Part shown: piece by piece, positions 2,131 through 59,426 of the stretch
How the letters are laid out: each line of letters begins with the position of its first letter
Numbering within the stretch: the first letter of the stretch is position 1
Origin: Anodontia alba
Lineage: Eukaryota; Mollusca; Bivalvia; Lucinida; Lucinidae
Length of the DNA stretch: 64,000 nt
Assembly: GCA_964016985.1 (NCBI GenBank)
Contig: OZ024823.1
Location: forward strand, 26,376,095 to 26,440,094
Direction: 5' to 3'
Made by a program: the position numbers and the translations under genes
The notes under the pieces: generated by a model
Databases searched by the model: none
The model's input: only the letters and a program-made list of their open reading frames with translations
What the model was told of the DNA's origin: nothing

Positions 2131-3434
2131 AGGGCCAAGATGGCCCTGTATTGCTCACCCAATTACCAGACAAGTCTGAGTCAATTGGCCTTTTGGTTCA
2201 AAGAAGTTCAATATTGATTTTCAAGATGGTGGCCATGTTGGATTTCCAATCAAAACGATTTTAGTCAATTGCCCTTTTGGTTCAGGAGAAAAAGTTCAAA
2301 ATAAATTTTCAACATGGCTGCTAGGTAACCATCCTGGATTTCTGATCAGAATGATTTTAGCTATTTTTGATCAACAAGTCACCCCGATACTTCCTATCAA
2401 ATTTCGAATCAATTGGCCTTTCGTTTCAGGAGAAGTTCAAAATAGATTTTCAAGATGGCAGCTGTGGGGGCCATCTTGTATTTCAGATTGGAGCAATTTT
2501 AGCTATTTTTTACCTACGTCACCTTGATGATTCTTACCAAGTTTCAAGTCAACTGGCCTTTTGGTTCAGGAGAATAAGTCAAAAACAGATTTTCAAAATG
2601 GTGGCATCTTGGATTTCCAATCGGGACGATTTTAGCTATTCTGATCTATCAGTCACCCCTATGCTTCCTACCAAGGTTCGAGTCAATTGGCTTTTCAGTT
2701 CAGGAGAAGAAGCGAAAAATAGATTTCCATGGCAGCCATCTCGGAATTCCACTCAGAACAATTTTTTTTTTTTTTCAATTTTTGATCTGCAAGTCACTCC
2801 AAAGCTTCCTACTCCGGTTCAAGTCACTTGGCCTTTTGGTTCAGGAAAAGAAGTGAACAATAGATATTCAAGATGGTCGCCATGGCGGCCATCTTGGATT
2901 TCTGATCAGAACGATTTTTTTTTTTTTTTTATCTACAAGTCACCCCAATGCTTCTTACCAAGTTCCGTGTCAACTGGCCTTTTGGTTCAGGAGAAGAAAC
3001 GAAAAATAGATTTTCAAGATGGCCACTACAGTGGCCATCTTGGATTTCCAATCCGAAAAATTTTAGCTACTTTTCATCTACAGGTCACCTCAATGCTTCC
3101 CACAATGTTTCGAGTCAGTTGGCCTTTTGGTTCAGGAGAAGAAGAGAAAAATAGATTTTCAGGATAGCCGCAATGGCTGCCATCCTCGATACCCAATCAG
3201 AACGATTTTAGCTATTTTTTATCTACAAGTCACCCCGATGCTTCCTACCGAGTTTTGAGTCACTTGGCCTTTGGGTTCAGGAGAAGAAGCGAAAACTAGA
3301 TTTTCAAGATGGCTGCTATGGCGGCCATCTTGTATTTCCAATCAGAACGATTTTAGCTCCTTTTGATCTACAAGTCACCCCGATGCTTCTTACCAAGTTT
3401 CTAGTCAATTGGCCCAGGGGTGTAGGAGGAGTAG

Positions 3435-4015
3435 GCGCTTTTAACTCTTAAACTGCCAATCATAACAATTGTCATCTGCTTAATGTTTGTTTGTTTGTGT
3501 TGAGGTTTTACGGCCCAGTCAACCCAATGGGGTCATGTCGAGCGTGGTCAGTTTACCTAACCACACGTTTACTGGGCAGGTTTAGTCCTCTAAGCGGTTA
3601 ACCAGTATTGTGCACATTCTTTCGCCAGAAACTGACAACTGCCCTTCTTGAATCAGGGGAAGGGAGAGAATGACCGTAGAAAATATTTCATGATCAATCT
3701 CTACGAAAGAATGTTGCCGATCTCGGCGGGGGTTGAACCCACGACCTCCTGGTCTCCAGTTGGACGGCGCATCCAACTGAGCCACTGAGGCCGTCCATCT
3801 GCTTAATGTCATCTGCTTGTGATTTTAAAAGTCATTTTTTGCAAACAGTATGAACCCAGATCAGACTGCTTCTCTAGGAGCAGTCTGATCAGGGTCCACA
3901 CTGTTTGCCTGTATGCAAAAAGTAGGTTTGAAAAGTTTGCAAGAATATTCAGCAGACGACATAAACAGATGATATTTTCAGATGCAGGTTTATTTGGCAT
4001 TTTAAGGGTTAAAGC
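3435..4015. mobile_element. MITE inside H1, itself split by a SINE
   Basis: The left part begins near TTTAACTCTTAAACTGCCAA. The right part holds GCAAACAGTATGAACCCAGA and an opposed CAGTCTGATCAGGGTCCAC arm and ends near GGCATTTTAAGGGTTAAAG. It carries the AACAGTGTAGACC core shared with MITE families C, E and G. A related left end recurs at 40775-40830. Confidence 0.45.
3486..3795 (-). mobile_element. SINE1 copy a (tRNA-headed), full length
   Basis: The minus strand reads a tRNA-like head with a TGGCTCAGTTGG A box and a GGTTCAACCCCC B box, a ~230-bp body, and a tail ending CCTCAACACAAACAAACAAA. An exact 13-bp target duplication CATCTGCTTAATG flanks it (3473-3485 and 3796-3808), the mark of LINE-assisted retroposition. 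Confidence 0.9.
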
Positions 4016-8485: not shown

Positions 8486-8740
8486 AAATCTGTTTGTGTA
8501 GAGGTTTTACGGCCCAGTCAACTCATTAGGGTCATGTTGAGCCTGGTCAGTTAGGTTACCTAACCACACATTTTTCTGGAAAGGCTTAGTCCTCGAAGCG
8601 ACTTACCAGTACTTGTGCACATTCTTTCGCCAGAAACTGACAACTGCCCCTCTTGAATCAGCAGAAAGGAGAGAATAACCATAGAAAATATTTCATGATC
8701 AATCTCCACAAAGGAATGTTACCAGATCCGGCTATAATGG
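8486..8740 (-). mobile_element. SINE1 copy b, lacking most of the tRNA head
   Basis: The body and tail match SINE1 (minus strand tail ...CTCTACACAAACAG) through the AATCTCCACAAAGGAATGTT part, then the sequence breaks off before the A box. GGTCTACTCTATAAGGG at about 8467 and GGTCCACTCTATAGGG at about 8759 flank it and could be a decayed target duplication. Confidence 0.75.
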
Positions 8741-8914: not shown

Positions 8915-9149
8915 AGCACTGTTGATTGTTTCTTTTATTGTGGTTTAAGGACACTTTCAACACTCTTTCAGTCATATTGCAAAGGTATCTTGTGAAGGGC
9001 ACTCCCTGCTCACTTTTAGCGTGCTGCTTCTTTCAAATATCCTGCCCCAGATACGATGATATTCCTTGAAGTCACATAGTACTGACTACACACCAACTAG
9101 TTCTAATTCCTAGCTCTACTTTCTAAATGCTGAGTTCCAAGTGAAAGAG
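8915..9149 (-). mobile_element. SINE2 copy, old and truncated
   Basis: It is a diverged match to the body of the adjacent full SINE2: TTTCAACACTCTTTCAGTCATA, TGCTCACTTTTAGCGTGCTG and AATGCTGAGTTCCAAGTGAA are in order. The tRNA-like head is absent. Confidence 0.65.
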
Positions 9150-9161
9150 CAATCTGTGTTG

Positions 9162-9488
9162 TTTGTTTGATTTGGGCTTAACGTCGCTTTCAACCTTTTT
9201 CAGTCATATCGCGACGGTGTCTGGATGTGGCAGGGAGCTCAATGCTCACTTTTAGAGTGCTGCCTCACTGAAATATCACGCCCCAGACACTTTGACATGA
9301 TATTCCACCCAGTCACATTATACTGACACTGAGCTGACCAGTTCTAGCTCTACTTTCTTAATGCTGAGCGCCAAGCGAAAGAGCAGCTAGTACCATTTTT
9401 AAAGTCTTTGGTATGACCCGGCCGGGGATCGAACCCGCAACCTCCCGGTCACAAAGCGGACGCTCTACCACTGAGCCACTGTGCCGGT
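9162..9488 (-). mobile_element. SINE2, full-length tRNA-headed copy
   Basis: The minus-strand head reads GACCGGCACAGTGGCTCAG with A box TGGCTCAGTGG and B box GGTTCGATCCC. The tail is GTTAAGCCCAAATCAAACAA. An exact 12-bp target duplication CAATCTGTGTTG flanks it (9150-9161, 9489-9500). It is not a functional tRNA gene because the acceptor stem does not close and a SINE body follows. Confidence 0.9.
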
Positions 9489-21554: not shown

Positions 21555-21864
21555 GCCAGCCTCGGTGGCTCAGTTGGATGCGCCGTTCGACTGGAGACCA
21601 GGAGGTCACAGGTTCAACCCCCGCCGAGGTCGGCAACATTCTTTCATGGAGATTGATCACGAAATATTTTCTACGGTCATTCTCTCCCTTCCGCTGATTC
21701 AAGAATGGCAGTTGTCAGTTTCTGGCGAAAGAATGTGCACAGTACTGGTTAACCGCTTAAAGGACTAAGCCTGCCCAGTAAATGTGTGGTTAGGTAATTT
21801 GACCGCGCTCGACATGACCCCATTTGGGTTGACTGGGCCGTAAAACCTCAACACAAACAAACAG
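21555..21864 (+). mobile_element. SINE1 copy c, full length
   Basis: The head has TGGCTCAGTTGGATGCGCC and B box GGTTCAACCCCC. The tail ends CCTCAACACAAACAAACAG. The target duplication is AAGTAACATTC / AAGAAACATTC (21544-21554, 21865-21875). Frames that read through the head are non-coding. Confidence 0.88.
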
Positions 21865-22111
21865 AAGAAACATTCTGCTTTTCGTTTTGAACTTTTTTTT
21901 CTTCTTTTTTATGATTTTAACCTGAATACACAAGGTTTTGTATACTTAAAATTTATTAAGTATCAACTGAGCCTCCATAGAAACGTTCAAGTTTTCGTGA
22001 AATGCAATGTATGCATATCTGCTATACAGTTGTATTAAATACAGAAATGTCCCGGCTTTCTTCCTATATCAAAATAAATTGTATATCTTTCCGATGCTAG
22101 GGTTAGCAAAA

Positions 22112-29405: not shown

Positions 29406-29572
29406 CATTGCTCTTGATAAGGCACTTTTTTCAACCAAAAAGTATCTATATTTCTCTTAGTTCTAGATGAAAACCTACGTTGTCAGTACTCATTAGAAGT
29501 GCTTCTGAGACACTTCTAATGAGTACACACAAGAAATGTTTTCACTGAGAAATAAAAAAAACTATTTACCTG

Positions 29573-29796
29573 TGTTACGACCTAGCACTCCTACCTTTGA
29601 TTATCTGCCTTGGCAGATTACGCATAGCTTCTAAGTATATATTCAATCTCTGACAACTGCGTCAGGGAGTCGACTCTTTGGCTCAGTGGTTAGAGCATTG
29701 GATTTTTATCCTGGAGGACCGGGTTCGATTCCCAGGAAAGCGGAATATTTTTTCAGCTATGCTTCATTCCTTTGTTACGACTATCATGTCGTAAGA
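29573..29796 (+). repeat. TRIM 5' LTR
   Basis: It begins TGTTACGACCTAGCACTCC and ends ATCATGTCGTAAGA. TGTTACGAC / GTCGTAAGA form an imperfect terminal inverted repeat. The usual final CA is GA in both LTRs. Confidence 0.92.
29679..29732 (+). promoter_or_regulatory. Pol III type A box and B box in the 5' LTR
   Basis: TGGCTCAGTGG (29679-29689) fits the A-box consensus and GGTTCGATTCC (29722-29732) fits the B box, at tRNA-like spacing. The D arm GCTC AGTGGTTA GAGC is perfect. Anticodon and acceptor stems are broken, so this is a tRNA-derived promoter-like module and not a tRNA gene. Transcription is inferred only. Confidence 0.75.
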
Positions 29797-29814
29797 TGGG
29801 GGCTCGTCCGGGAT
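29797..29814 (+). promoter_or_regulatory. tRNA-Pro type primer binding site
   Basis: TGGGGGCTCGTCCGGGAT directly abuts the 5' LTR. It is complementary to the 3' end of tRNA-Pro and equals the 18-nt site well known from gammaretroviruses, so chance occurrence at exactly this position is negligible. Confidence 0.93.
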
Positions 29815-29868
29815 AGGACTTTACTTAGCCAAAAATGGCTTCACGTCATCATAAATGATGACTTCCTT

Positions 29869-29880
29869 GAAAAGGGGGAG
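29869..29880 (+). promoter_or_regulatory. polypurine tract of the TRIM
   Basis: GAAAAGGGGGAG directly precedes the TGTT of the 3' LTR, the place and composition expected for plus-strand priming. Confidence 0.88.
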
Positions 29881-30106
29881 TGTTACGACCTAGCACTCCT
29901 ACCTTCGATTATCTGCCTTGGCAGATTACGCATAGCTTCTAAGTATATATTCAATCTCTGACAACTGCGTCAGGGAGTCGACTCTTTGGCTCAGTGGTTA
30001 GAGCATTGGATTTTTATCCGGAAGGACCCGGGTTTGATTCCCATGAAGGGCGGAATATTTTTTCAGCTATGCTTCATTCCTTTGTTACGGTTATCATGTC
30101 GTAAGA
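29881..30106 (+). repeat. TRIM 3' LTR
   Basis: Same ends as the 5' LTR. The A box is at 29987-29997. The B box at 30031-30041 has T for C (GGTTTGATTCC), which would weaken it. Both boxes sit at almost the same offsets as in the 5' LTR. Confidence 0.92.
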
Positions 30107-30190
30107 CCTGATACCCACTCTTATCTAGACCTATGAATCTTTTAGTGATCATACCCATGTCATGATGGTGTGATGGTTGGAACTGATGTC

Positions 30191-30503
30191 TTTGTTTGTT
30201 TATTAGTTTGTGTTGAGGTTTTACTGCCCAGTCAACCCAATGGGGTCATGTCGAGCACAGTCAATTTACCTAACCACACTTTTACTGGGCAGGCATAGTC
30301 CTCCAAGCGGTTACAAATATTGTGCACATTCTTTCACCAGAAACTGACAACTGCCCATCTTGAATCAGTGGAAGGGAGAGAATAACAGCAGGAAATATTT
30401 CATGATCAAACCCATGAAAGAATGTTGCCTACCTAGCTGGGGTTGAACTGGCAACCTCCTGATCTTCAGTTGGACGCGCATCCAACTGAGCGACCGAACG
30501 ATG
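30191..30503 (-). mobile_element. SINE1 copy d, diverged full length
   Basis: Tail GGCAGTAAAACCTCAACACAA and body in order. The head at the right end retains ACCGAACGATGC and GTTGAACTGGCAACC changes from the consensus. No clear target duplication. Confidence 0.8.
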
Positions 30504-35066: not shown

Positions 35067-35384
35067 GCTGGCCTCGGTGGCTCAGTTGGATATGCCGTCT
35101 GACTGGAGACCAGGCGGTCGCGGGTTCCACCCCCATGGAGGTCGGCAACATTCTTTCGTGGAGATTGATAATGAAATATTTTCTACGGTCATTCTTTCCC
35201 TTCCACTGATTCAAGAAGGGCAGTTGTCAGTTTCTGGCGAAAGAATGTGCACAATACTGGTTAACCGCTTAGAGGACTAAGCCTGCCAAGTAAACGTGTG
35301 GTTAGGTAAACTGACCGCGCTCGACATGACCCCACTGGGTTGACTGGGCAGTAAAACCTCAACACAAACAAACAAACAAAACAA
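35067..35384 (+). mobile_element. SINE1 copy e, full length
   Basis: tRNA-like head (TGGCTCAGTTGGATATGCC), body, and tail CCTCAACACAAACAAACAAA. Exact 12-bp target duplication GTTTCTTAAAAT (35055-35066, 35385-35396). Confidence 0.92.
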
Positions 35385-46130: not shown

Positions 46131-46440
46131 TGTTTGTTTGTTTGTGTTGAGGTTTTATGGCCCAATCAACCAAATGGGGTCATGTTGAGCATGGTCACTA
46201 CCTAACCACACTTTTACTGGGCAGGCTTAGTCCTCTAAGTGGTTAACCAGTATTGTGCACACTCTTTCACCAGAAACTGACAATTGCCCTTTTTGAATCA
46301 GCAGAAGGGAGAGAATGATTGTAGAAAATATTTCATGATCAAATCTCCACAAAAGAAATGTTGCCAACTCTGTGGGGGTTGAACCTGCAACCTCCTGATC
46401 ACTAGTCAGACATGCACCCACTTGAGCCACCGAGGCTGGC
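46131..46440 (-). mobile_element. SINE1 copy g, full length
   Basis: Tail GGCCATAAAACCTCAACACA and tRNA-like head at the right end (GCCAGCCTCGGTGGCTCAAG). It abuts the MITE-C end; no clear target duplication. Confidence 0.85.
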
Positions 46441-50514: not shown

Positions 50515-51960
50515 AAATATTACAAGATGGCCAAGATGGTCCTGTATTGCTCACCAGAGAACCAGACAAGTTTTGAGTTAATTGGCCTTTCAGTTCATGA
50601 GAAGAAGTTCAAAATAGATTTCAAGATGGTGGCTATGGTAACCATCTTGAATTTCTGATCTGAACAATTTTAGCTATTTTTGATTTACAAAGATAAGTTC
50701 ATAATTTCTACCAAGTATCCAGTCCACTGACTGGCCTTAGATTTTCAAGATGGTGGCCATCTTGGATTTCTGATCAAAATGATTTCAGCTATTTTTATCT
50801 ACAAATTGCTCTGATACTTCCTACCAAGTATCAAGTTAATTGGCCTTTCCATTCAGGAGAAGAAGTTTAAAATACATTTTCAAGATGGCAGCAATCTTGC
50901 ATTTCCGACCAGAACAATTTTAGCTATTTTTGATCTTCAAGTCACCTCAATACTTCCAATGAAATTAGAGTTAATTGGCCTTTTGGTTCAGGAGTTCAAA
51001 ATAGATTTTCAAGATGGCAGCCATGGCATTTTGGATTTTCAATCTGAATGATTTTAGCTTTTTTTTTTTTTTTTTTTTATTCTATAAGTCACCCTGATAC
51101 TTGCTATCAAGTTTCAAGTCCACTAGTCTTTTGGTTCTGGAGGAGTTCAAAATAGATTGCCAAGATGGAAGTCATCTTGGATTTCTGATCCATTTTTTAT
51201 CTACAAGTTGCCCCAATATTTCCTACCAAGTTTTTAATCAAGTGGCCTTTCAGTTCAGGAGAAGATGGCAGTGGTGGCAGCTATCTTGGATTTCTGATCT
51301 GAATGATTTTAGCTATTTTTGATCTACAAATCATTCCAAAAGTTCCTATCAAATTTTAGAATGAGTTGGCCTTTCGGTTCAGGAGAAGAAGTTGAAAATA
51401 GATTTTCAAGATGGCAGCCATGGTGGCAACCTTGGATTTCCGATCGGTGATTTTATCTATTTTTTATCTACAAGTCACCCCATACTTCATACCAAGTTTT
51501 GAGTCAATGGGCCTTTTGGTTCAGGAGAAGTTCAAAACAGATTTTCAGGATGGCTGCCATGGCGGCAATCTTGGATTTCAGATCAGAATGATTTTAACTA
51601 TTATTTTATCTGTGGCCACCATCTTGGACTTCTGATTGTACCGATTTTAGCTACTTTTGATCTACAAGTTATATCCATACCTCCTATCAAGTTTCGAGTC
51701 AATTGGCCTTTCCGTTCAAGAGAAGTAGTTCAAAATAGATTTTCAAGATGACAGCCATAGCAGCCTTCTTGGATTTTCAATCAGAATAATTTTACTATTT
51801 TGATCTACAAGTTGCCCCATACTTCTTACTAAGTTTTGAGTCAATTGGCCTTTTGGTTCAGAGAAGTTCAAAATATATTTTTTTCTATTTTTATCTCTGG
51901 TGGCCATCTTGTTCAATTACCAGTTTAGCAAAATCAAGTATTTTTATGGCTGGTGTCAAG
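50515..51960 (+). repeat. H14: tandem-core array (GATGGCGGCC type)
   Basis: It begins AAGATGGCCAAGATGGTCC, equivalent to the H1 5' hairpin. About nine ~150-bp units with TTGGCCTTTTGGTTCAGGAG and AGATGGCAGCCATCTTGG follow. No 3' hairpin was found; the array meets a SINE1 piece at 51971. Confidence 0.65.
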
Positions 51961-51970
51961 TATTGTTTTG

Positions 51971-52106
51971 TTTGTTTGTTTGTGTTGAGGTTTTATGGCC
52001 CATGCAGTCAACCCAATTGGGTCATGTTGAGTGCGGTCAGTTTACCTAACCACTCTTTGACTCGGCAGGTTTAGTCCTCTAAGTGGTTAACCAGTATTGA
52101 GAACAT
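51971..52106 (-). mobile_element. SINE1 copy h, 5'-truncated
   Basis: Only the 3' half of SINE1 is present (tail CATAAAACCTCAACACAAAC on the minus strand). An exact 13-bp duplication AAGTATTGTTTTG flanks it (51958-51970, 52107-52119), so the truncation happened at insertion, as in L1-type retroposition. Confidence 0.92.
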
Positions 52107-52402
52107 AAGTATTGTTTTGTTAAGTTTGTTAAATTCAACAAACATAACAAAACAATACTTACGTGCTTAAGGTATTCCTTTGAGGTGGAAATTTAAGTTC
52201 AGGGAGAATGGAAGTTTTCTTTAAAGCTTTAATACTAACCACCAAATTAGTAATTACTTCAATTAGAGTTTCTGATATTGGAGGTACCACATTTACATGT
52301 ATGTACTACAATGTAAACCTTTCAGGCTAATCATTAATAGCAACTGTGATACTGGTTTCTCCTCTCAATATCTATGCCAGACCAATGCATGTTGAAATAA
52401 GG

Positions 52403-55400
52403 GGGCCAAGATGGCCCTGTATCGCTCACCTGATTACCAGACAAGTTTCGAGTCAACTGGCCTTTCGGTTCAAAAGAAGTTCAATATAGATTTTCAAGAT
52501 GGCAGCCATCTTGGATTTCCAGTCAGAATGATTTTAGCTATTTTTGATCTACAAGTCACCTTGATACTTCAAATGAAGTTTCGAGTCAATTGGCCTTTTG
52601 GTTCAGGATAAAAAAGTTCAAAATAGATTTTCAACATGGCTGCTAGGGCAACCATCTTTGATTTCCAATCAGAATGATTTTAAATATTTTTGATCTACAA
52701 GTCACCCTGATACATGTACTTCCTATCAAGTTACGAGTCAACTGGCCTTACTGTTCAGAAGAAGTTCAAAATAAAATTTCAACCTGGTGACTATAGTGGC
52801 CATACTGGATTCTGATCAGAACAAATTTAGCTATTTTTTACCTACAAGACACCCAGATACTTCTTACCATGTTTCCAGTAAATTGGCATTTCGGTTCTGG
52901 AGAAGAAGTGCAAAATTGATTTCAAAGATAGCGGCCATGGTGGCCATCTTGGCTTTCCAACTGGAAAGATTTTAGCTATTTTTTGTTCTACAAGTCACCC
53001 CTATGTTTCCTACCCAGTTTCAAGTCAATTGGCCGTTCATTTCAGGAGAAGCCGGGTAAAATAGATTTTCAAGATGGTGGCCATCTTTGATTTTCAATTG
53101 GAACGATTTTCGCTATATTTGATCTACAAATCACCCCAATGCTTCCTACCAAGTCAGTTGGTCTTTCAGTTCAGAAGGAGAAGAGAAAAATAGATTTTCA
53201 AGATGGCATCTTTGATTTCTGAGCCAATTTTTGACTTACAAGTCACCCCGATGCTTCATACCAAGCTTCAAGTCAATTGGCCTTCTGGTTCAGGAGAAGA
53301 AGCGAAAAACAGATTTTTCAAGATGGCGACCATGGCTGCCATCTTGGATTTCCAATAGGAATAATTTTTTGTCTAAAAATCACCCTGATGCTTCCTACCA
53401 AGTATCAAGTCAAACGGTCTTTTGGTTCACCAGAAGAAGCGAAAAAAAATATTTTCATGATGGCCACCACGGGGGCCATCTTGGATTTCTGCTGGGAACA
53501 ATTTTAGCTGTTTTTGATCTACATGTCACCCTGATGCTTCCTACCAAGTTTCAAGTCAAATGGCTTTTTGGTTCAGGAGGAGAAAGAAAAAACAGATTTT
53601 CAAGATGGCTGCAATGGTGGCCATCTTGGATTTCCGATTGAAAAGATTTTAGCTACTTTTGATCTACAATGACTAAAATCGTTCTGATAAGAAATCCAAG
53701 ATGGCCGCCATAGCGGCCAGCTTGAAAATCTATTTTTAGCTTCTCCTCCTGAACTGAAAGGCTAACTGACGTGACACTTGGTAGGAAGCATTGGGGTGAT
53801 TTGTAAATCAAAAATAGCTAAAATCATTCCGATCACAAATCCAAGATGGCCACCATGGCAAACAAGAGCTGTCGTAGGACAGCGTAGCTCGTCTGCTGGG
53901 TACATTTTATATTGTAACATTTTTATCATTAAGCCATATAATATAGGTCACACTGACCTAGATGTATTTGTATGTAAATCAATTTGTCACATAGATATAA
54001 TAATCCAGGTATGACAATTCTCCATGAAATAGTAATAAAAATAAAAGGCAAAATCACTGAAGCATGAAATATAGGTCACAATGACCTAGATATAGTACAT
54101 GGTCATTCATTGGGTCACATGGAACTAATATCCCAGGTGTGACATTTATCCAACAAATACTATTCAAGATATAAGGCAAAATCACTGAACCATGAAATAT
54201 AGGTCACACCAACAGAGATATATTTTGACGTCAATAATCGGGTCACAAGGAACTAATATCCCAGGTGTGACATTTATCCAACAAATAGTATTCAAGATAT
54301 AAGGCAAAATCACTGAACCATGAAATATAGGTCACAATGACCTAGATATAGTAAGTGGTCATTCATTGGGTCACATGGAAGTAATATCCCAGGAGTGACA
54401 TTTATCCAACAAATAGTATTCAAGATATAAGGTAAAATCACTGGACCGTGAAATCTAGGTGACCTGGACCGTAAAATGTAGGTCACCATGACCTTCACTC
54501 TCTAACACTTAAACCAATGTCACATAGTTAGCTGATGTATAACCAGTTGTGTCTATAACCTGTAGGCATATAAGATTTTACAAATGTGTCCTAGATTTTG
54601 ACCCCTAGCCCCACTCCAAGGCCCACCCTGAGGTATGAACCCAGGGGTATGTTCTTTTGGAATCTCAGAAGACTCCTCCAGGTACCCAAATTCTAAATAT
54701 GAATGCTCTATGAGGAGTGAAAGTCAAGATATAAGAATTTGAAAAACTTTAACACAGTATTACAAAGGTGTCCTAGATTCTGACCCCTAGCCCCACCCAG
54801 GGGCATGAACCCAGATGTTTATTCTCTTGGAATCTCAGAAGACCCTCCAAGGTACCTAAGTTCCAAATTTGATGCCTCTGTGAGGAGTGACTGTTGAGAT
54901 ATAAGCATTTGAAAAACTTTAACGCAGTGTGACGGGAACGGGAACGCAAACGCAAACACAAACGCAAACGCGGACAACCGGAGTGACTACAATAGCTCTC
55001 CTTGTACTTCGTACAGGCGAGCTAAAAATAGGCTTTTAAGATGGTGGCCATCTTGGATTTCCAATTGTAATGATTTTAGACATTTTTTATCTACAAGTCA
55101 CCCCGATACTTCCTCTCAAGTTTCAAGTCAACAGGCCTTTTGGTTCGGGAGAAGAAGCGAAAAATATATTTTCAAGATGGCAGCCATGGCAGCCATCTTG
55201 GATATCGGATTACAAGATGTTAGGATCGGAATTCCAAGATGGGCACCATGGCAGCCATCTTGAAAATCTATTTTTCGCTTCTCCTCCTGAACCAAAAAGC
55301 CAACTGACTTGAAACTTGGTAGGAAGCATCGGGGTGACTTGTAGATTAAAAATGTCTAAAATCATTACGATTGGAAATCCAAGATGGCCGCTATCTTAAA

Positions 55401-55760
55401 AGCCTATTTTTTGCCATGGCGGCCATCTTGGATTTGTGATCGGAATGATTTTAGCTATTTTTGATTTACAAATCACCCCAATGCTTTCTACCAAGTGTCA
55501 CGTCACTTAGCCTTTCAGTTCAGGAGGAGAAGCTAAAAATAGATTTTCAAGATGGCAGCCATGGCGGCCATCTTAGATTTCTTATCAGAACAATTTTAGT
55601 CATTTTTTACCTACAAGTCACCCCGATGCTTCCTAATAAGCTTTGTCAACTGGCCTTTTGGTTCAGGAGAAGAAGCGAAAAATAGATTTTCAATAAGGCG
55701 GCTGTGGTGGCCATCTTGGATTTCCAATCTGAACAATTTTAGACAGTTTGTCGGGCAGTT
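52403..55760 (+). repeat. H15: largest tandem-core array (GATGGCGGCC type), split by H6
   Basis: It starts with hairpin GGGCCAAGATGGCCC and TGTATCGCTCACCTG. About 16 units follow, several of them inverted (53665-53860, 55210-55400). The inverted stretches create long palindromes around CCATCTTGG/CCAAGATGG. No tail hairpin was recognised before 55760. Confidence 0.65.
53858..55028 (+). repeat. H6: tandem-core element inserted in H15
   Basis: The 5' end is CAAGAGCTGTCGTAGGACAG and GTAGCTCGTCTG. Units of about 130 bp carry TATAGGTCACAATGACCTAG and CAGGTGTGACATTTATCC, then a second block with GACCCCTAGCCCCAC. The tail is AACGCAAACGCAAACAC, hairpin TCCTTGTACTTCGTACAGGC and GAGCTAAAAA. The empty target survives in inverted form at 55391-55440 (CCTATTTTTTGCCATGG). 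Confidence 0.75.
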
Positions 55761-57121: not shown

Positions 57122-57567
57122 TTGTGGCTTAAGGACAAGTCAACCCTCGTGGGTCATTTTGTGTCGTCTCCTGGAGAAAGGGAGAAAAGAGATAGTAGAA
57201 GAGATGAAAGAGTGGGACAGAGAAGAAAGAGGAACAGGAATGAAAGTGAAGAAGAAATAAAAATATTCCCTCCTTCTACCCTTACCTGCTATAAGGAGTA
57301 TGTTTGTTTGTTTGTGTTGACGTTTTACGGCCAAGTCAACCCAATGGGGTCATGTCGAGTGCAGTCAGTTTACCTAACCACACGTTTACTTGGCAGACTT
57401 AGTCCTCTAAGTGGTTAACCAGTATTGTGCACATTCTTTCGCCAGAAACTGACAACTGCCCTTCTTGCTACAAGGAATAGCAGCCTAGCCCAACTGTAAG
57501 CCAATATCAGTCAGACGCCCTGGTGACATAAGACACATGACACCTTCGCACCACCTGACCACCCCCC
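57122..57567 (-). mobile_element. SINE3 copy 1, split by a SINE1 fragment
   Basis: The minus strand runs from GGGGGGTGGTCAGGTGGTGC to a tail of TTAAGCCACAA. TTCTAAATCTGTG / TTCTAAGTCTGTG (57109-57121, 57568-57580) is a 13-bp target duplication within H16 unit sequence. A purine-rich body (AGAAAGAGGAACAGGAATGA) is typical. The head does not show a convincing tRNA B box. Confidence 0.8.
57298..57465 (-). mobile_element. SINE1 copy i, 5'-truncated, inside SINE3
   Basis: The 3' half of SINE1 is flanked by TGCTATAAGGA / TGCTACAAGGA (57287-57297, 57466-57476). The undisturbed SINE3 at 58609 reads CACTACAAGGATAGCAG at this place. Confidence 0.88.
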
Positions 57568-59116: not shown

Positions 59117-59426
59117 GCCGGCCTCAGTGGCTCAGTTGGACCATCCGGCTGGAGACCAGGAGGTCGCGGGTTCAACACCCGCCGAGGTCTACAACATTCT
59201 TTTGTGGAGATTGATCGTGAAATATTTTCTACGGGTAATTCTCTCCCTTCCGCTGATTCAAGAAGGGCAGTTGTCAGTTTCTGGTGAAAGAATGTGCACA
59301 ATACTGGTTAACCATTTAGAGGACTAAGCCTGCCCAGTAAACGTGTGGTTAGGTAAACTGACCGCGCTCAACATGACTCCACTGGGTTGACTGGGCCATA
59401 AAACCTCAACACAAACAAACAAAAAA
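59117..59426 (+). mobile_element. SINE1 copy j, full length
   Basis: Head CTCAGTGGCTCAGTTGGACC with B box GGTTCAACACC; tail CATAAAACCTCAACACAAAC. Target duplication TCTGCTGAAGAAAA / TCTACTGAAGAAAA (59103-59116, 59427-59440). Confidence 0.9.

Follow-up and report, generated by a model that had tools for sequence, protein, structure and literature searches.

Introduction

Miniature LTR retrotransposons (TRIMs) whose LTRs carry tRNA-derived segments have been described under the name Helenus, within the TRIMp3 group (Kojima 2024, PMC10886601). In bivalves, 51 Helenus families are reported from five orders of Pteriomorphia, with tRNA-Pro among the bivalve primers, and tRNA-Lys-TTT is the alignment partner of molluscan LTRs; animal families have target site duplications (TSDs) of 4 bp, and tandem arrays are reported in a fish family (PMC10886601). 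For the animal families, the helper has been inferred from the similarity of the primer binding site (PBS) to that of Gypsy elements. The same report states that it is not known how the dependence of TRIMs on an autonomous partner is maintained, and calls Pol III transcription of Helenus unvalidated (PMC10886601).

Two other groups of TRIMs resemble Helenus in part. Cassandra, in plants, has a Pol III-type promoter and terminators in its LTR, forms tandem arrays and is predicted to fold into an LTR-LTR 'super-hairpin' (PMC7215508). The bivalve biv-TRIM has repeats of 202-218 bp, an interior of 77-80 bp, the polypurine tract (PPT) GGGGAGA, solo repeats and tandem copies; it has no unambiguous PBS, and TGATCCCAAAGGAC is conserved in its interiors in all species but one (PMC6934838). 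Among autonomous elements, Gmr1 carries its integrase upstream of the reverse transcriptase (PMC8220671, PMC6238403).

Here we analyse a TRIM located in a stretch of 64,000 nucleotides (the window) and its relatives in the host genome. We consider it probable, at roughly 80%, that this element is a 534-bp non-coding TRIM of Helenus type with a 4-bp TSD, whose LTRs contain a tRNA-Lys-like segment as the likely Pol III promoter, and that an abundant Gypsy element of the same genome likely carries out its reverse transcription and insertion in trans.

Results

Anatomy of the element

The element at 29573-30106 is a non-coding LTR retrotransposon of 534 bp, in which an LTR of 224 nt, an interior of 84 nt and an LTR of 226 nt follow one another. 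Its parts are the following.

29569..29572, no strand: left copy of the target site duplication, CCTG
29573..29796, + strand: LTR 1, 224 nt, TG...GA, direct repeat
29797..29880, + strand: interior, 84 nt, non-coding
29797..29814, + strand: primer binding site TGGGGGCTCGTCCGGGAT, 18/18 to the MLV-type tRNA-Pro PBS, abutting LTR 1
29869..29880, + strand: polypurine tract GAAAAGGGGGAG, abutting LTR 2
29881..30106, + strand: LTR 2, 226 nt, direct repeat
30107..30110, no strand: right copy of the target site duplication, CCTG

The original prediction had proposed a complete TRIM within 534 bp around an 84-bp interior, and LTRs, PBS, PPT and a short TSD were all recovered. It had also placed an 18-nt tRNA-Pro primer site directly against the LTR, and this site matches the MLV-type PBS at every position; TGGGGGCTCGTCCGGGAT is contained in a printed MLV-PBS probe, where a proline-tRNA PBS is named (PMC4587795). 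The window copy also fits a 5-bp TSD, ACCTG, if the LTR ends one base earlier. Of the 34 TRIM copies whose 4-bp flanks match, just 8 are also compatible with 5 bp, and we therefore prefer 4 bp.

The two LTRs differ at 10 of 226 aligned columns (eight substitutions and two single-base gaps), and seven of these ten differences are clustered inside 30 columns of the tRNA 3' half (scan p 0.0014). We make no claim of gene conversion between the LTRs, the clustered stretch being also among the most variable in the TRIM family.

The tRNA-like segment, its boxes and the T runs

Each LTR contains a tRNA-like segment with candidate signals for Pol III, and a possible TATA element lies upstream of it.

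29636..29642, + strand: TATATAT, possible TATA element (putative function), about 30 nt upstream of the tRNA-like start, LTR 1
29641..29703, + strand: near-palindrome (LTR 69-131) made of an upstream inverted partial copy of the tRNA-like 5' half and that half itself; predicted RNA hairpin
29671..29744, + strand: tRNA-Lys(TTT)-like segment of LTR 1, Rfam RF00005 at 29679-29735, 28.2 bits, outer limits set by eye
29679..29689, + strand: A box TGGCTCAGTGG, LTR 1, 0 mismatches
29703..29707, + strand: T5 run in the anticodon loop, LTR 1, possible Pol III stop
29722..29732, + strand: B box GGTTCGATTCC, LTR 1, 0 mismatches
29748..29753, + strand: T6 run past the tRNA-like segment, LTR 1, possible Pol III terminator
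29980..30052, + strand: tRNA-like segment of LTR 2, Rfam RF00005, 25.4 bits
29987..29997, + strand: A box TGGCTCAGTGG, LTR 2, 0 mismatches
30031..30041, + strand: B box GGTTTGATTCC, LTR 2, one mismatch
30058..30063, + strand: T6 run, LTR 2

Both segments score just under the Rfam tRNA cut-off of 29 bits, and neither was called as a tRNA by ARAGORN; the anticodon position, judged by eye from the sequence, reads TTT (Lys). The Rfam matches at E up to 1 comprise tRNA twice and, weakly, U6 once, with 5S rRNA absent. The A and B boxes announced for each LTR proved perfect except for the single B box mismatch in LTR 2, as scored against strings that we take to be the consensus of these boxes. Using an A box without mismatch and a B box with at most one, at tRNA-like spacing, we found two box pairs on the + strand of the window, both in the TRIM, and two on the - strand; simulated single-strand 64-kb sequences gave one pair in 20.

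The same signals were followed through the 92 LTRs of the 46 TRIM units parsed from the host genome (see below). The A box is unchanged in 89 of them and the B box in 85, AGTATATAT, which holds the TATATAT motif, is kept in 88, the T5 run is present as ATTTTTA in 87 and the six T of the T6 run in 89; because the copies are young, this conservation is no proof of selection. Going by the A and B boxes, Pol III is likely to transcribe the TRIM. The conserved T5 and T6 runs argue against a simple full-length Pol III RNA, which would be expected to stop inside LTR 1. As these runs lie between the Pol III start and the primer site, a full-length RNA would need either read-through of LTR 1 or Pol II transcription from TATATAT.

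Predicted RNA folds

The near-palindrome of LTR 69-131 has 18 matches out of 24, a value reached by 0 of 2000 shuffles, and its predicted fold is stronger in the sense RNA (-31.7 kcal/mol) than in the antisense RNA (-16.2 kcal/mol). A second copy lies in LTR 2, at 29949-30011. The predicted fold of the whole TRIM has a z of -8.6, the two LTRs can pair as a long predicted hairpin, and an LTR 1-interior-LTR 1 construct folds better than 60 of 60 controls in which one shuffle was used for both LTRs. Among 25576 sampled 63-nt stretches of the window, 144 fold at least as well as LTR 69-131, the target being counted and the other 143 including stretches that overlap it. No covariation support for the hairpin stems was found in the 92 LTRs, where variant cells keep the pairing in 32 cases and break it in 37, with 0 two-sided changes. 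This variation, together with the many equally good folds in the window, leaves a selected function of the LTR hairpin unsupported.

The TRIM family in the host genome

Further copies were sought in the assembly of the host (1.86 Gb, 317 contigs). Of 2588 first-look candidates, a first-look number and no copy count, 40 were scored, giving 50 scored places, so that the copies sampled are those most like the window copy. Parsing of 39 fetched stretches, in which near-full-length LTRs and an interior were demanded, yielded 46 LTR-interior-LTR units including that of the window. The original prediction had called for such a search, and these 46 units, from the best-scoring part of the 2588 candidates, have the LTR-PBS-PPT-LTR order.

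The units are 530-538 bp long; 45 of the 46 start with TGTT (the remaining one, in the L050 array, with TATT) and all end with AAGA. Identical 4-bp flanks surround 34 of them, and among the other 12, eleven lie in tandem arrays and one, L016, is a mismatch. The LTR pairs are identical in eight units, which points to recent activity. The A/B-box segment is present in both LTRs of all 46 units. Copies without it, named in advance as the observation that would speak against a family property, are absent from this set, although they could have been missed in a best-scoring sample for which near-full-length LTRs were required.

Four tandem arrays, in which LTR and interior are repeated, were found (L022, L029, L043 and L050). 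The outer flanks of the whole array match in L022 and L029 (GTAT), so that these two may have inserted as units, and differ in L043 (ATGC/TACA). One further copy, L036, has inserted, with the TSD ATAT, into the TATATAT motif of another TRIM LTR that runs in the opposite direction; ATAT accounts for 6 of the 34 TRIM TSDs. Searches of the viral_contigs and genome_contigs collections with TRIM patterns gave no true relative: the matches (L001-L004) cover 16-19 nt only, on contigs with long open frames.

Other repeats in the window

SINE-like repeats that measure about 305 bp and have a tRNA-like head form another family in the window, with copies at the following places.

3484-3792, 21559-21872, 30194-30497, 35070-35378, 46131-46436 and 59119-59423: SINE-like copies
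8491-8732 and 57300-57467: partial copies

One of these copies lies 87 bp downstream of the TRIM, and the tRNA-Ser calls of ARAGORN at 35069 and 59120 correspond to the heads of two others. With SINE patterns, genome_contigs gave nothing and viral_contigs two matches, 22-26 nt long. A tRNA-Thr was called at 9414-9485 by both ARAGORN and Rfam; it is followed by a sequence resembling what is presumably another SINE body, and parts of 8963-9385 recur at a distance of about 235 bp. Three further places, 2263-3414, 50741-53635 and 55413-55749, are occupied by tandem repeats of about 145 bp in which long open frames occur. The open frame at 2361, in the first of these, has 1537 similar predicted proteins in public sequence, and for this reason is likely a translated satellite and not a gene.

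A Gypsy element with the same primer site

A piece of a Gypsy element is located between TRIM units of the L022 array. Its 221-aa frame matches RNase H families and ends directly after the RNase H. A fragment covering the reverse transcriptase tail and RNase H gave 150 scored places out of 3789 candidates in the host genome, all those listed being 99-100% identical to it, and many of the matches sit in open frames of about 1565-1618 aa. In the one copy read in this region, a 600-aa in-frame piece upstream of the reverse transcriptase contains the integrase zinc-binding and core domains, so that the order of this Gypsy is integrase before reverse transcriptase. It shares with the Gmr1 clade the position of the integrase upstream of reverse transcriptase and RNase H, and is likened to that clade by this domain order. 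The fragment had no relative in viral_contigs.

The end pieces of eight Gypsy copies show LTRs of about 580-597 bp, with 97.8-100% identity within pairs. The LTR ends are TGTTATATAACAG...CTCGTAACA in seven copies, the eighth, L076, starting within an AT repeat. All eight copies have a 4-bp TSD (that of L076 inside the AT repeat), and all eight contain the 18-nt primer site of the TRIM. The LTRs of both elements begin with TGTTA and end with TCGTAA followed by C or G and A, and the Gypsy polypurine tract, GAAGAGGGGAAG, is similar to that of the TRIM. The autonomous partner that the original prediction advised looking for, with a common primer site and common ends, thus has a candidate in a Gypsy with the same primer site and similar LTR ends. 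The two elements differ immediately before the PBS, where the Gypsy has a 5-nt spacer, GAAAT, and the TRIM none; the similarity of their leaders past the PBS is not clearly above chance (138 of 2000 shuffles reach the same).

Among 55 Gypsy 3' ends, one leads into a TRIM (the L127 hybrid described below, seen as L061), one into a second Gypsy (L120) and one has no LTR end (L101). L120 and L103 form a tandem Gypsy pair on one strand, about 5.76 kb apart, at G000:C16:7936996-7943414, in which the LTR past the upstream copy continues into a second Gypsy primer site and leader.

Insertions that join TRIM and Gypsy

A search of the host genome for the Gypsy spacer followed by the primer site and the TRIM interior gave 17 exact junctions, against 0 for a reversed-pattern control. 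All 17 places were read. As the search pattern contained the spacer of this Gypsy, it would not reveal hybrids with other elements. In 15 of the 17, all or part of a Gypsy LTR lies to the left of the junction; of the remaining two, L139 shows there a TRIM LTR whose 3' end is Gypsy-like, and L133 lacks any match to the Gypsy LTR. To the right, a TRIM LTR follows the interior in 16 hybrids, L130 being the exception.

Nine hybrids could be tested at both ends, and the outer 4-bp flanks are identical in eight of them:

L126: TSD ACAG, Gypsy LTR on the left, TRIM LTR on the right
L127 (whole Gypsy; left end L081, right end L061/L082): TSD CTAT, Gypsy LTR on the left, TRIM LTR on the right
L131: TSD ATAT, Gypsy LTR on the left, TRIM LTR on the right
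L134: TSD ATAT, Gypsy LTR on the left, TRIM LTR on the right
L136: TSD ACAC, Gypsy LTR on the left, TRIM LTR on the right
L139: TSD AATT, TRIM LTRs at both ends
L129 with L140: TSD CAAT, Gypsy after the TRIM LTR, Gypsy LTRs at both ends
L137 with L141: TSD GATC, Gypsy after the TRIM LTR, Gypsy LTRs at both ends

For L129 and L137, the parts of the Gypsy that were read are the two ends and the leader. The ATAT duplications of L131 and L134 are weak, their surroundings being AT-rich, and the flanks of L128 match (ATTG) only when an additional G is accepted. The remaining eight hybrids (L123, L124, L125, L130, L132, L133, L135 and L138) are truncated, continue into an array, have no Gypsy LTR, or were read up to their near end. 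The 3' end of the L139 TRIM LTR reads GTAACA-GAAAT, as in the Gypsy, placing the exchange at the very end of the LTR.

The Gypsy LTRs of the hybrids are 85 to 99% identical to one copy. In L127 no difference separates the two Gypsy LTRs along 595 bp, which indicates a recent hybrid. The L022 array is a composite of another form, in which Gypsy RNase H, PPT and LTR start lie between TRIM units; its outer TSD is GTAT and its four TRIM LTRs are 0-2 differences apart. No TRIM-helper hybrids are apparent among the publications examined, at the level of titles and opening lines of abstracts, a level that leaves their absence from the literature unproven.

Discussion

How the TRIM may be mobilised

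Because eight of the nine testable hybrids each lie within a single 4-bp TSD, TRIM and Gypsy were likely copied together, with the Gypsy as helper. The presence of a Gypsy end and a TRIM end inside one duplication makes an integrase that uses both types of end hard to avoid. We infer that RNAs of both elements would enter one Gypsy particle, where tRNA-Pro would prime both; the reverse transcriptase would sometimes switch template within the shared primer site, and the Gypsy integrase would accept either LTR end. The TRIM RNA itself is a more delicate matter. It might start near the tRNA-like 5' end of LTR 1, read through the T runs there and end at or after the T6 run of LTR 2, so that the tRNA-like body would form the terminal repeat (R). 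Were Pol III to initiate at the tRNA-like 5' end and terminate in the T6 run of LTR 2, R would, by prediction, be about 85 nt long and consist of the tRNA-like body. A complete model, in which a Pol III-transcribed TRIM and a Pol II-transcribed Gmr1-like Gypsy form a recombining pair that shares particles, with the tRNA-like body as R and with swaps of LTR and interior at the tRNA-Pro site that leave persisting hybrids, is tentative, and we think it rather unlikely to hold in every part.

Transcription has an alternative explanation. The genomic RNA could be made by Pol II from TATATAT, the tRNA-like segment being a passenger or giving rise only to a short Pol III transcript terminated at the T6 run of the same LTR. 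The TATATAT motif precedes the tRNA-like start by about 30 nt and is nearly as constant among the copies as the T5 and T6 runs, which hardly vary; a long Gypsy helper would presumably require Pol II itself. On the other hand, no poly(A)-signal-like hexamer of the tested list occurs in either window LTR, and the A and B boxes are conserved too, with the reservation made above that counts from young copies do not establish selection. We give Pol II transcription a serious chance, somewhat short of even. Insertion of a SINE has been proposed as the source of such LTRs (Kojima 2024, PMC10886601), and SINE-like copies are frequent in the window. A chance SINE insertion in one ancestral LTR, with no family property behind it, is nevertheless very hard to credit: the segment is found in both LTRs of every parsed unit (near-full-length LTRs having been demanded), its best match to the window SINE copy at 3484 is 9 nt long, and blastn with the LTR as query recovers none of the window's SINE copies. 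As a description of the TRIM family, SINE insertion is unlikely; as a remote origin, it may apply.

The hybrids could also have arisen by recombination between genomic copies after insertion, in which case they would say nothing about shared particles. Both elements are abundant, both form tandem arrays, and short homologies are present at the L022 junctions; chromosomal recombination could indeed have made part of the arrays and of the hybrids. Identical 4-bp flanks around a mixed unit in eight of nine testable cases are, in contrast, what integration of a ready-made hybrid gives, and in five of these eight the two sides are bounded by different elements, one by a Gypsy LTR end and the other by a TRIM LTR end. 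Recombination as the general explanation thus appears quite improbable to us. It is also conceivable that the main helper is a different LTR element that shares the tRNA-Pro primer site, with this Gypsy as an occasional partner, since the primer-site string also appears in print for murine retroviruses and is not specific to one family. The hybrid Gypsy LTRs all lie within the range of identity to one copy given above, so that the association, as seen with a pattern containing the spacer of this Gypsy, looks repeated, and we hold a different main helper to be unlikely.

Trans-mobilisation by the Gypsy, our preferred reading, brings something new through the hybrids, which bear on the helper identity of a recently active element of a published kind. 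If TRIM and Gypsy do form a recombining pair, they would provide the first direct view of mobilisation of an animal TRIMp3 element. The hybrids with a single TSD tie a Helenus-type TRIM to one young and abundant Gypsy, and so provide a defined pair for tests of packaging, priming and end recognition. The question of Pol III is sharpened by the conserved T runs, since a full-length Pol III RNA must ignore those of LTR 1.

Comparison with known systems

Single tRNA-derived SINEs can be set aside for the element, which has LTRs, PBS and PPT and is not a single tailed unit. It resembles biv-TRIM in the size of repeats and interior, in having a PPT and in its tandem copies (as far as the cited account of biv-TRIM goes); its interior lacks TGATCCCAAAGGAC and carries an 18/18 PBS, and these two differences set it apart from biv-TRIM. 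With Cassandra, as characterised in the cited part of its literature, it shares an LTR segment resembling a Pol III-type promoter, T runs, tandem arrays and a predicted LTR-LTR hairpin. The idea of a tRNA-type counterpart of this plant element holds in that each LTR contains a tRNA-like segment, whereas the corresponding segment of Cassandra, a plant TRIM, is derived from 5S rRNA.

The original prediction went further and saw a new design, which cannot be maintained: such elements are already published as Helenus (Kojima 2024, PMC10886601). The window TRIM and its relatives have in common with Helenus a tRNA-derived segment with A and B boxes in both LTRs (92 LTRs, 46 units), a non-coding structure of less than about 1 kb, a PBS after LTR 1 and a PPT before LTR 2, and a 4-bp TSD (34 of 46 units), as well as, in the published features cited here, tRNA-Pro priming, likeness to tRNA-Lys-TTT, tandem arrays and PBS similarity to Gypsy. 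The window TRIM is of Helenus type, every defining feature that was tested being present, an assignment made by features. The size, repeats and SINEs of the host genome look bivalve-like; if the host is not pteriomorphian, the published bivalve range of Helenus would be extended. What sets the present family apart is its hybrids with a Gypsy element, none being reported for Helenus in the parts of the published account on which we draw (PMC10886601).
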